Source: Pseudoalteromonas piscicida
GTDB taxonomy: Bacteria > Pseudomonadota > Gammaproteobacteria > Enterobacterales > Alteromonadaceae
DNA: 64,000 nucleotides
Reading direction: 5' to 3'
NCBI RefSeq assembly: GCF_000238315.3
Contig: NZ_CP011924.1
Span: 2,609,501 to 2,673,500 of the forward strand
Numbering within the stretch: the first letter of the stretch is position 1; each line of letters starts with the position of its first letter. The notes beneath the pieces were generated by a model. That model saw only the letters and a program-made list of their open reading frames with translations, did no database searches and was not told the DNA's origin. Made by a program: the position numbers and the translations under genes. Shown in pieces: positions 17,997 to 21,554 of the stretch.

Positions 17997-19670
17997 ATGC
18001 TAAATCATGTAATGAGAGTATTTTTAGGGGGCGATCCTGTGTTTTCTAGTTTCACATTAAAAGCAAAAATAATTACCTTTGCCGCCGCAATATTTGTTTC
18101 ATTACTTGCCGTTGCCTTTGTAGGTCTTCAAGCTCTGCGCCATGCCAGTGAAAGCGATAATATTGCACGTATCAACCAATTAATGAAAAGCACCATTAAT
18201 ATTGTTAAACAGTTTGAGCACTTTGCAGAGCAAGGAAAACTGACTGAGCAACAAGCAAAAGAGATGGCAATTCAGGTTTTAAGAGAAAATAAATACCATG
18301 ACTCTGAGTATGTGTATGTTGTTAATGATAAAATGGACTTCGTAGCAACACCTCATGACCCCCAACTACATAACACCAGCTTTAATGACTTTGAAGATGC
18401 TGACGGCAAAAGCATAGGCAGCATGGTGAAGCGCTTAGTCGGTAACCAATTTGATCAGATCATTACCTACAATTGGACCTCACTACGAGATGGAGAAGTT
18501 GTCGACCTGACCTCAGTGGTTCAAAAAACCCCAGGATTTGGCTGGTACGTCGGCACAGGTATTAGTTATAAAGAAGTGAATGAGCGCTATTGGGACACCG
18601 CAATCTGGTTAGTTGCACTTTCTTTAATGGTTGCCGTTGCATTAACCACCGCACTTGCGCGGTTTGGACTGTCTTTGAATAACAAACTTGGTGCTGAAAT
18701 CAATGATGTACTCGAAATCGTAAAACATGTTTCAAGAGGAAACCTGACTACACCAATCGATACTGATGAATGCCAAGATTATAGTATTCTCGCAGCCATG
18801 GCCTATATGCAAGGCGGACTAAGAGGTGTAGTTGAAGGACTTAAGGAAGCAACCAAGGCGCTACAAAACCAAACATCAGACAGCGAAGTACGCTCAGTAG
18901 AACTTGAGAATCTAACTCGTAGTTTAAATGCAGAAACTCAGATGGTGGCTTCAGCAATTACCGAACTCACAGCATCAGCACAAACCGTCGTCGAACATGC
19001 CGAGCAAGCTGCAGATTCAGTTCAAGAGGCTGAAAAGCAAGGTAATGCAGCCGACAAACTGACCGCCCAGGCAGCGACTGAAATTGCATTATTAGAGCAA
19101 CAAATTGACAGCGCTGGTAATAACATTCAAGTGCTAGATGAAGAAGTATCTAACATAGCCAATGTACTTACCGTTATCCAATCTATCGCCGAGCAAACCA
19201 ACTTACTGGCACTCAATGCTGCGATAGAAGCAGCACGAGCTGGAGAGCAAGGACGAGGCTTTGCTGTCGTAGCGGACGAGGTCAGACAGCTTGCTCAGCG
19301 CACTCAAACCAGTACAGAAGAGATCCGTACCATGATCACTAAGCTGCAAAGTGCGACTCAAGATGCGAAGGCTTCGGTAAGTTTGAGTATTGCAACAAGT
19401 GAAAAGACGGTGAGTATGTCATCTAAAGCTTCCCAAGCGCTTGTGCAAGTCGCCGATTCGTTAAAATCTATATCACAGATGAGTCATCAAATAGCTCAAG
19501 CAGCCAAAGAGCAATTGGATGCAGGTGAAGATACAGCCAAACGTGTCGTTATTATTTCTGATACCGCATCGCAAACGGCTAGCGTCTCAGAAAAAGCGCA
19601 CAAAGCGACAGATACGATTAAATCATTATCCGGAAATCTAGAGCTTGAGATGGCTAAATTCAAGGTGTAA
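17997..19670 (+). CDS. Methyl-accepting chemotaxis protein with single-Cache sensor
   Basis: Inner-membrane chemoreceptor of 557 aa. TM1 (about residues 22-45) is followed by a periplasmic domain of about 150 residues with the sCache-like pattern [20 protein letters not shown] and [12 protein letters not shown]2 (about residues 200-225), a HAMP-like stretch and a long coiled-coil signalling domain follow. The domain carries the invariant hairpin tip [30 protein letters not shown] near residue 410. The ligand is unknown. Starts at 18012 (ATG) or 18039 (GTG) are alternatives. No terminator was seen after it. Confidence 0.95.
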
Positions 19671-19836: not shown

Positions 19837-19851
19837 TTGTGATAATCACAA
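19837..19851. promoter_or_regulatory. Palindromic candidate operator upstream of the double-glycine peptide gene
   Basis: TTGTGAT-A-ATCACAA, a 15-nt palindrome with perfect 7-base arms, 65 nt upstream of the peptide start. The half-site TGTGA is CRP-like but the spacing (3 nt between TGTGA and TCACA instead of 6) rules out a normal CRP site. The regulator is unknown. The rest of the 246-nt leader after the MCP gene is AT-rich with a GC-rich patch at about 19796-19832 that could fold. Confidence 0.4.
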
Positions 19852-19916
19852 TAAAAGATAAACCCAATACTATTTGATCACTTGGAATTCAAGTGAGTTC
19901 AATAAGGACTATGATA

Positions 19917-20042
19917 ATGCAAAAGCTAAATTTGAAAGAATGCAAAAAGGTTTCTGGTGGTAATATTTACGAGCCAAACGATCCCAAAGCCGCAAAGAGC
20001 GAAACGCCAACAGCAAAAAATGAAGCTAGCAAAAAAGATTAG
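19917..20042 (+). CDS. Putative secreted peptide precursor with double-glycine leader (41 aa)
   Basis: Short ORF with AAGGA 8 nt before the ATG at 19917. It encodes MQKLNLKECKKVSGG, a 15-residue leader of the double-glycine type (LxLxEC..KVSGG), as used by peptidase C39-containing ABC exporters for class II bacteriocins and signal peptides. Cleavage after GG would release a 26-residue peptide beginning NIYEPNDP, which is hydrophilic, rich in Lys/Ala/Glu/Ser/Thr/Pro and has no cysteine. It is thus unlike pore-forming bacteriocins or lanthipeptides and may be a signal or a non-classical product. Neither a C39 exporter nor a modification enzyme is in the window. Two small membrane-protein reading frames follow directly. 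The leader is seen in sequence; secretion is inferred. Confidence 0.7.
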   Translation: MQKLNLKECKKVSGGNIYEPNDPKAAKSETPTAKNEASKKD

Positions 20043-20051
20043 CACTCACCT

Positions 20052-20198
20052 ATGAAGAAAAACTTTTCATTAGGAGACTTACTCATTCCATACGCCATTG
20101 TGGCAGTAGGTCTCCTAGTTCTGTACGATATTAGGTTTCATTTCTATCTCATTTACCTGTTAATCGTTTTAACAGTCTTTATTTGGGGGCTCGCTTAA
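20052..20198 (+). CDS. Small two-helix membrane protein (48 aa) downstream of the peptide gene
   Basis: Starts 9 nt after the peptide stop with MKKNFSLGDLLIPYAIVAVG and has two predicted transmembrane stretches (about residues 10-26 and 30-47), ending FIWGLA. It overlaps the next reading frame by 16 nt, and the overlap contains a run of five G (20185-20189). It is either a separate small protein (immunity or export helper) or the N-terminal part of one larger six-helix protein from which it is separated by a frameshift. If joined by a -1 shift at the G run the fusion would be 206 aa. Confidence 0.6.
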   Translation: MKKNFSLGDLLIPYAIVAVGLLVLYDIRFHFYLIYLLIVLTVFIWGLA

Positions 20199-20671
20199 AA
20201 GACATCAATATATGCGCTTTATCTCTTCTTGCCATTGTACCGTTTACCCTAGAAACAGCGGTGTTTTCCTCCGGCCTCATCAGTTTAGAATCGTCTAAAG
20301 ATCAGAGGTTACTTCAAAATACTCTCATTTTTGGAGCACACTTTTTAATCGACTTAATGATCGTATTCCCTCTTACATATCGTGTAGAATTGACGAAAAA
20401 GTTATTTCCTAAATTCAAAACTCGCTATACCTTTGCTGATGCAATAATGCCTTGGTTAGCGATATTTAGCGTATGTATGAGCTTTGCTGCACTAGTTGAA
20501 AATTACTTTAGAAATGCGAAGGGTGTAAATCTGACATTTTTCTTCTACAGCTTTGATGTTAGCGGTTACCTGATATACAGCGCTAACTGCCTAATTTTAT
20601 TAATTTTAGCCGCCGTTACTTACAAAGAAGCGTATGATTATGCACTTCCAAGCCTGAGGAAAAAGAGATAA
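20183..20671 (+). CDS. Four-helix membrane protein, unknown, overlapping the preceding small ORF
   Basis: 162 codons from a TTG at 20183, with no good ribosome-binding site, and no ATG or GTG in frame near the N-terminus. Four hydrophobic helices are visible (around SLLAIVPFTLETAVF, FGAHFLIDLMIVFPL, MPWLAIFSVCMSFAAL and YSANCLILLILAAVTY), ending in a basic tail SLRKKR. The weak start and the G5 run in the overlap suggest it is translated by coupling or by frameshifting from the upstream 48-codon frame, or that a single gene has been broken. Family not recognised. It may serve as immunity or receptor partner of the double-glycine peptide (inference). Confidence 0.6.
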   Translation: MGARLKDINICALSLLAIVPFTLETAVFSSGLISLESSKDQRLLQNTLIFGAHFLIDLMIVFPLTYRVELTKKLFPKFKTRYTFADAIMPWLAIFSVCMSFAALVENYFRNAKGVNLTFFFYSFDVSGYLIYSANCLILLILAAVTYKEAYDYALPSLRKKR

Positions 20672-20676
20672 TCAAC

Positions 20677-21468
20677 TCAAAAGTAAGGGTTGACTAGCTC
20701 GATACTCTCACTTTCAAGTTGCTTGTTAAGACCATACTTTTGCTTTAAAGATTGTAACTCGCCAGACGCTTGAAGTTTGGCAAGTCCCTCTTTCAAGGCT
20801 GTTGCTAAAGCCTGTTTATCCTTATTCACAAAGAAATAAAATGCGGTTGAATAAGAAAGGTGGAAATCAGGCACTATCATCAAGTTTGCATTATTTTGCG
20901 CAATGAGTTCTGATTCTGCCTCGATTATTGAACGTGGAAAATAATCTGCTTTCTTATCCGCAATCAGATTAAACATGGTTTGATAATCAGAAATCGGTCT
21001 GACCTTAAGACCGTTGTAGCTTAGAATTTTGGTATCAGGCCAATCGTGCCCCTGAACTGCGGTAAAACGCTTTAATCCATTAAGTGACCGAACTGCTTTT
21101 ATGGCGGGATAAATATCTTTATGAACAATCAGCACACGTTTACCAATAAGTTCATCATACAAGGGGACCTTAATAGGAATAGCAATTCGCTCACGGGCTG
21201 GGCTGGTCATCGACCAATGCAAATCAACCTTACCTCGGCTTAGTGCCATTAACGTGCGCTGTTGATGAGGGTGGATTTTGATGTGTTCAATTTGAGCTGA
21301 GTACTTAGCAGCCGCTAGCGCCTTTTCTAGTAATTCGTAAAGATAAAGATCGCGATCGTACAAGGTTCGCGCTTCTTTCGCGACATAGATTAACTCGGGG
21401 GTTTGCGCCGCTATACAAGCACTTTGAAACACCAGAGCAGAGATAATTACACTCAACTTTAACTTCAT
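20677..21468 (-). CDS. Periplasmic solute-binding protein, SBP_bac_3-like
   Basis: 263-aa protein with a signal peptide (MKLKLSVIISALVFQSACIA) and the two-lobe pattern of family 3 solute-binding proteins. The ATG at 21468 was chosen because GAGG lies 8 nt upstream; the longer frame to 21507 adds 13 residues with no ribosome-binding site. No ABC permease or ATPase is adjacent, so it may be an orphan sensor-type binding protein. It lies next to, and converges on, the small membrane-protein cluster, with 5 nt between the stops. Confidence 0.82.
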   Translation of the reverse strand: MKLKLSVIISALVFQSACIAAQTPELIYVAKEARTLYDRDLYLYELLEKALAAAKYSAQIEHIKIHPHQQRTLMALSRGKVDLHWSMTSPARERIAIPIKVPLYDELIGKRVLIVHKDIYPAIKAVRSLNGLKRFTAVQGHDWPDTKILSYNGLKVRPISDYQTMFNLIADKKADYFPRSIIEAESELIAQNNANLMIVPDFHLSYSTAFYFFVNKDKQALATALKEGLAKLQASGELQSLKQKYGLNKQLESESIELVNPYF

Positions 21469-21554
21469 CGCACAACCCTCTTTTAGGGGAAACAATACTA
21501 CAATCAAGAGTATTTTTACGGATTGCTATTACTATTGCGTAATTAAAAATATAG

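Follow-up and report, generated by a model that had tools for sequence, protein, structure and literature searches.

A 41-codon gene for a double-glycine (GG) leader peptide and, directly behind it, a gene for a putative six-helix membrane protein form a small cassette in Pseudoalteromonas piscicida. We propose that this locus encodes a secreted peptide signal and a dedicated polytopic inner-membrane receptor that works with XRE regulators, a reading to which we assign a probability of about 55%. The window, i.e. the whole stretch of DNA that was analysed, comprises 64,000 nucleotides of a genome of two contigs and 5.49 Mb. Its features are listed in Table 1.

Table 1. Coordinates of the peptide-partner cassette and its neighbours in the window, with the evidence for each feature.
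Feature	Position	Strand	Evidence
Methyl-accepting chemotaxis protein (MCP), sCache_2 sensor domain	17997..19670	+	Pfam; clade-wide upstream neighbour
15-bp dyad TTGTGA-N3-TCACAA, candidate operator of the peptide gene	19837..19851	.	Sequence and 11-orthologue alignment
Second dyad around CTTG-N5-CAAG, candidate operator or small RNA stem	19878..19896	.	Lies between palindrome and ribosome-binding site
AAGGA ribosome-binding site	19904..19908	+	8 nt before ATG 19917; alignment
GG-leader peptide gene, 41 codons and stop	19917..20042	+	Coding constraint, conserved leader, partner adjacency, database protein P0121
Leader MQKLNLKECKKVSGG (C39-type; V at -4, GG at end)	19917..19961	+	Constraint over 11 orthologues
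Predicted released peptide, 26 residues, P-x-x-P core motif EPNDP	19962..20039	+	Sequence; divergence; GG-x(3-9)-P common to the family
Six-helix (predicted) membrane partner gene, frame changed near 20180-20192	20052..20671	+	Intact relatives, L041 alignment, AlphaFold2 model of P0005
Family 3 solute-binding protein (SBP), convergent	20677..21507	-	Pfam; homologues in cassette-free genomes; replaced in L007 and L094

A preliminary description of this DNA had claimed a short ORF with a double-glycine leader behind a well-spaced ribosome-binding site, and a released 26-mer that is hydrophilic, free of cysteine and begins with NIYEPNDP. The ORF, the leader and the spacing of the AAGGA motif were all found as claimed, and translation bears out the properties of the 26-mer. 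The sequence AATAAGGA at the ribosome-binding site is invariant across the 11-row orthologue alignment, and a 41-aa database protein (P0121) is 100% identical to the window peptide. The start at 19917 is favoured because the frame of an earlier in-frame ATG, at 19911, is not retained in the relative L048. The leader ends in CKKVSGG, with a hydrophobic V at position -4, and its combination of V at -4, L at -12 and GG matches the usual C39-recognition pattern; across the whole family, V or I occupies position -4 in 59 of the 71 GG units.

The description had named two grounds for refutation, lack of conservation in relatives and lack of coding constraint; neither held in a codon comparison of 11 orthologues (the window, L002, L039-L041 and L043-L048). 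The leader (15 codons) is conserved throughout, with pN 0.0005 against pS 0.48, in rows found with a pattern that demands the exact leader (11 of the 11 supplied loci matched it and none was dropped); its variable sites at codon positions 1, 2 and 3 number 2, 0 and 11. The released part of the same orthologues has pN 0.36 and pS 0.61. The P. luteoviolacea type (L003-L005 and others) has a different leader and stands outside this codon set. Because the changes in the leader are almost all silent while the released part diverges, the peptide ORF is, on this sequence evidence, a real gene. The expectation that gene finders would generally overlook it was not supported, several relatives being annotated as hypothetical proteins.

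Two small membrane proteins had been described after the peptide, a 48-codon frame and an overlapping 162-codon frame. Membrane coding does begin within 10 nt (the partner ATG at 20052 lies 9 nt past the peptide stop codon), but by sequence comparison the two frames are a single, frame-changed partner gene, whose 5' piece reads 20052-20198 and whose 3' piece reads 20183-20671. In the relatives L002-L005 one ORF of 204-209 aa runs across both window frames, the intact database copies P0001, P0004 and P0005 have 206 aa, and the window and the intact copy of L041 share 96.9% identity in an alignment of 621 columns that contains one gap; it is from these intact relatives and this one gap that we deduce the frame change. 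Either a real mutation or a sequencing or assembly error could have produced it. Three database relatives given as 162-164 aa (P0003, P0006 and P0011) look like late start choices and not frame changes, since contigs of matching length carry full ORFs (L002, L025 and L039). Matches of the 3' frame to PsiE and DUF412 were below cut-offs and were discarded. The single gap relative to L041 could also mean that the window copy is itself decaying, which would be compatible with any reading of the family, and a copy in genome G488 is likewise split, with stops. We consider decay of the window copy less likely than not, as its peptide gene is intact and encodes the same protein as that of L041, and an assembly error could account for the frame change.

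The association between leader peptide and membrane protein, suggested by the preliminary description, recurs across the partner family. The test scored same-strand ORFs of 25-170 aa that contain GG-x(3-9)-P and end between -320 and +100 of the partner. Such an ORF was found before 54 of the 87 stand-alone partners that have 320 nt of upstream sequence (53 of 84 after removal of L001, L146:4508 and L117:5450), as against 2 of 174 control ORFs from these loci, all 200 aa or longer; the same test gave 0/18 for XRE-fused partners and 23/870 for shuffled upstream sequence. Among the 33 loci that failed the strict test, 18, picked by hand and eye after the fact, carry a variant, with AG, GA, GN or CG in place of GG or with a C-terminal unit, and 15 of the 87 tested loci have neither the strict nor the variant motif. 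At L051 and L053 a second partner gene stands in tandem behind the first, and no peptide ORF of its own was found upstream of it.

The partner family was detected in 44 of the 108 genomes of the genus with profile A3, built from 18 sequences. The wider profile A4 (19 sequences) detected it in 19 of 295 genomes of the bacterial family, which we take to be the Alteromonadaceae of GTDB, covering 8 of the 52 sampled genera with up to 10 places per genome; the window genome has nine. A4 matched 3/375 genomes in the order sample and the narrow profile A2 matched 3/394, all within the genus, and A4 matched 2/369 in the class sample, namely the window genome and G572 (a weak match with stops). The order, class and family genome sets are samples of these groups. 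Members were taken from the fetched loci, a part of all listed places, and comprised 150 distinct sequences and 108 representatives at less than 90% identity, classed as 89 stand-alone and 19 XRE-fused. The 89 include two XRE-bearing fragments (L146:4508 and L117:5450) and the 3' piece of the window (L001); L151:47, by its position a cut fused member, lies outside the 87 tested loci. L142:9926 forms a very long branch in the partner tree and may not belong to the family.

The partner gene has pN 0.18 and pS 0.77 in ten of the 11 orthologues, the window being excluded. A Pfam and NCBIfam scan of 19 members returned only HTH or sub-threshold matches, and the six-helix partner family is without a name in either collection; searches of the open-licence PMC literature listed no description of it. 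AlphaFold2 modelled the intact relative P0005 (75 rows) as six long helices, with pLDDT 85.6 and pTM 0.76, and the fused member P0056 as an HTH that a linker joins to six helices (pLDDT 82.1, pTM 0.62). In a six-helix model with both termini inside, K and R account for 13 of the 37 residues of loops assigned to the inside and for none of the 16 outside. Four residues (N53, R111, D130 and E150) are invariant in the 75 partner rows. The periplasmic and cytoplasmic halves of the helices are equal in entropy (1.86 and 1.84), and no ligand-specificity face is visible. The partner had no sequence match among solved structures, and fold searches gave no convincing relative; the fused model has weak Foldseek matches to PrgX and Rgg2 (TM about 0.2), which we read as matches of the modelled HTH part only. 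A single weak match to KwaA (E 0.0095, in 1 of 19 members) was treated as chance, and a defence-system identity was set aside.

The proposed link to transcription comes from XRE proteins. A small XRE gene (77-163 aa) lies on the same strand upstream of 68 of the 87 stand-alone partners (68 of 84 in the cleaned set), and a fused XRE lies within 1.2 kb of 16 stand-alone loci. Each of the 19 fused representatives has an HTH that shares 55-76% identity with its closest small XRE. For the membrane part, identity to the closest stand-alone partner is 51-80% in 15 of the 19, the comparison being void for the other four, whose best row was the cut fused member L151:47. Two XRE subfamilies, one starting like MIDGDDLRAMR and one like MQTPEEYEVSQRIG, each occur both as separate proteins and fused to the partner, which argues that the partner works with an XRE regulator. 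Plain immunity would not predict a fusion of XRE and partner. A DNA-binding domain and membrane helices are thus joined in one protein, as in transmembrane regulators, in the 19 fused relatives but not in the window partner and its clade. Elsewhere in the window genome, L090:2375-7542 (G000:C2:421374-426541) holds an array of four XRE-fused partners together with a fifth, stand-alone one, a small XRE and a single GG peptide.

The 64-kb window contains no C39 exporter, as the preliminary description had said. The genome has one C39 peptidase match, at G000:C1:3194077, about 0.5 Mb from the window; it carries ABC domains and has an HlyD adaptor as neighbour. The surrounding locus (L087:2697-7783, G000:C1:3190696-3195782) is lanthipeptide-like and comprises this C39 ABC exporter, the adaptor, a LanC-like protein that seems to have a signal sequence, and a GG peptide rich in Cys (MKLALNKKC...TPQIAGG...). 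Its exporter may serve the cassettes as well. The conserved co-occurrence with C39-type ABC exporters that had been proposed as a check was found within the genus, where a C39 match of at least 100 bits is present in 44 of 44 genomes with the partner family versus 21 of 64 without it (Fisher p 1.7e-14, with shared descent left uncorrected). At the level of the bacterial family, C39 occurs in 205 of 295 genomes and in 18 of the 19 that bear the partner family, little above background, and in two of these 18 (G870 and G933) the match is weak.

The peptides share a core plan, exemplified by GGNIYEPNDP in the window and by GGSIYKPNKP, GGTAIKPPRA, GGSGIHKGDDPK and GGSLGVIKDDPR. In 50 of 71 units, GG is directly followed by S, G or T; the twelve-residue cores contain Cys in 2 of 71 and have a mean GRAVY of -1.0, and the core is 16-30 residues long in most single-unit relatives. 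A script counted more than one GG..P unit in 12 of 54 precursors. On manual reading four of these (L112, L114, L142 and L174) were overlapping-GG artefacts, so that eight multi-unit precursors remain, and that of L164 has five units. In L163 and L180 a copy of the unit of about 10 residues, without a second GG, stands at the very C-terminus. These multi-unit precursors and C-terminal repeats suggest that the active unit is short.

A different precursor is found at L171:1033-1290 (minus strand), which appears to be of Sec type, with an apparent signal peptide and two copies of SSGGTKGDPI or SGGTKGDPI. Its genome, G890, is the only one of the 19 family-bearing genomes without any C39 match, which suggests that the export route switches with the exporter. 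The rule is not strict, since L168 (genome G918) lacks a GG leader despite a strong C39 in the genome. Upstream of the partner, the precursors of L168 and L170 lack a GG leader, terminate in SSGDRGTRPK and SSDGNGGKPK and differ in their N-terminal part, which is rich in Ser and Gln. A bacteriocin-leader model and a few bacteriocin models matched the peptides of two relatives below cut-offs, and a bacteriocin identity was not assigned on these matches. Features of lanthipeptides and other RiPPs are also missing from the window, whose core has no Cys and whose neighbours (MCP, SBP and EAL-GGDEF) include no modifying enzyme.

The above findings suggest the following model. The GG leader would guide the precursor to an ABC exporter with a C39 peptidase, whose gene lies elsewhere in the genome, and this exporter would cut after GG and export the remainder. 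Probably the initial 9-12 residues form the active unit, whose plan is approximately GG-S/G/T-x(3-8)-P with a further P, K or R after it. The six-helix membrane protein of the same or a neighbouring cell would read the peptide; a cytoplasmic XRE regulator, either the product of a gene just upstream or part of the receptor protein itself, would carry the signal to DNA. We infer export, cleavage, binding, signalling and active-unit length from computed features, namely the coding peptide, the cassette architecture, the receptor family and its six-helix model, the XRE fusions and the exporter co-occurrence. Several observations weigh against the peptide-signal reading. The clade of the window has no XRE gene beside it and the receptor gene of the window is frame-changed; the exporter is not linked to the cassette and already has its own GG peptide, a Cys-rich one; the two helix halves do not differ in entropy, some loci have no peptide motif, and the C39 co-occurrence is uncorrected for phylogeny. 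In addition, a GG peptide next to an inner-membrane protein is also the layout of a microcin with its immunity protein.

This last point leads to the main rival, in which the peptide is a class II microcin-like bacteriocin that inhibits close relatives, the six-helix protein protects the producer and the XRE protein regulates production. A GG leader, an adjacent inner-membrane protein and a peptidase-containing ABC transporter (PCAT) with adaptor in the genome are a known layout (PMC10233263), the core diverges across orthologues, there are several systems per genome (nine places in that of the window), and known immunity proteins span 51-216 aa, one reaching the upper figure (PMC9746304, PMC10233263). 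In the genome of the window a PCAT and a membrane fusion protein are present, though unlinked and about 0.5 Mb away, and the adjacent membrane protein falls within that range in relatives (204-209 aa), the window copy being frame-changed. The core, however, does not fit: known class II cores have 60-90 residues (PMC10233263, which also calls class II exporters promiscuous) against 26 here and 16-30 in most single-unit relatives, and the twelve-residue cores are hydrophilic and nearly Cys-free. An immunity role does not easily account for direct fusion to XRE or for arrays in which fused partners stand in tandem next to a single peptide. Because of the short hydrophilic cores, the repeated short units and the XRE fusions, we prefer signalling and regard the bacteriocin explanation as less likely, albeit the strongest competitor. 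If it were true, these would be very short bacteriocins with an unusual immunity family.

The clade to which the window belongs differs in its surroundings. In 14 of 14 representatives (window piece included) an MCP gene lies upstream on the same strand, and an adjacent small XRE was found in 0 of 14; the members from L051 and L053 are second copies, further from the MCP. An unrooted tree of 86 partners, from which the window piece was left out, places the remaining 13 clade members on one side of a branch with support 100/100. The partners of L007 and L094 form the other main branch of the clade and retain the MCP linkage with a different downstream neighbour, the SBP gene being swapped for another gene. 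Upstream of the MCP, L094 and the window share a pseudouridine-synthase-like gene. On the downstream side, an EAL-GGDEF protein (Pfam) follows the SBP. A homologue of the SBP is present in 11 of 12 chosen cassette-free genomes of the genus, in 10 of them at 45-55% identity, and no MCP motif was found within about 1.5 kb in those 10 loci (with less flank in L192). The SBP, which the preliminary description had named with the MCP as a possible sensor, is probably outside the cassette. An insertion of the cassette between a conserved MCP and SBP was considered and dropped, as no empty site appeared among the 12 cassette-free genomes.

Under the peptide-signal reading, the output in this clade would be an XRE protein acting in trans or the adjacent chemoreceptor. 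That the receptor acts on the chemoreceptor and not on an XRE protein, the self-made peptide being a chemotactic cue, is suggested by the invariable MCP and the lack of an adjacent small XRE, by the well-supported single branch and by a linkage that outlasts the change of downstream neighbour in L007 and L094, but we think it improbable, since the further shared upstream gene in L094 lets common descent of one locus explain the linkage without function, and no protein combining MCP and partner was observed.

The best-documented examples of peptide communication come from Gram-positive bacteria, where histidine kinases serve as receptors of GG peptides. In the XRE peptide receptors Rgg and PrgX the sensor part is a soluble repeat domain, and to our knowledge the EbfG/PteB system of Synechococcus elongatus has no adjacent receptor family. 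With class II microcins such as microcin V the cassette shares a GG leader with C39-type features, an adjacent inner-membrane protein, and a PCAT and HlyD adaptor in the genome; it differs in its 26-residue hydrophilic core, in a six-helix family with XRE-fused members and in its unlinked exporter. Like Rgg and PrgX, it ties an XRE HTH regulator to a short peptide, but its sensor is modelled as a six-helix membrane domain with positive-inside loops, unlike an RRNPP protein. With Gram-positive PCAT-exported GG peptides, whose roles include communication and competition (PMC7018657), it has in common a short unmodified GG peptide with a diverging core; here the host is Gram-negative, the partner is not a histidine kinase and the XRE is split or fused. 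The fused relatives, and only these, resemble ToxR-type transmembrane regulators in joining a DNA-binding domain to membrane helices, with the difference that here the domain is an XRE HTH and the helices number six; the word XRE does not occur in the main text of a survey of such regulators (PMC10269533). Small secreted GG-motif proteins outside the Gram-positive bacteria with a non-antibiotic role, in biofilm, are described for EbfG/PteB (PMC4997328).

The analysis brings together many GG peptides of Gram-negative marine bacteria, most of them with a partner from a membrane family that has no Pfam or NCBIfam model. A possible wider picture, which we offer tentatively, is a Gram-negative peptide language of GG..P peptides of about 10 residues, several per genome, with a shared C39 exporter and an undescribed six-helix, membrane-embedded peptide sensor for XRE factors that is split from them or fused to them, one clade having been rewired to a chemoreceptor. 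With the naturally occurring fusions to DNA-binding domains, the signalling hypothesis can be put to a direct test.

Ahead of the peptide gene lie two dyads that are, from their sequence, candidate operators. The perfect palindrome that had been described there is present in the window, but it is not fixed: 3 of 11 orthologues (the window, L041 and L047) show perfect symmetry over 15 bp, and in L048 it is altered in both arms, a two-sided change. The 5-bp arms TTGYG-N5-CRCAA are retained in 8 of the 11, as read from the alignment by eye. By the same reading, CTTG-N5-CAAG is present in 8 of the 11 orthologues, has N7 in L044 and is absent in L002 and L043. A pattern scan of the whole genome found TTGTGANNNTCACAA at two sites.
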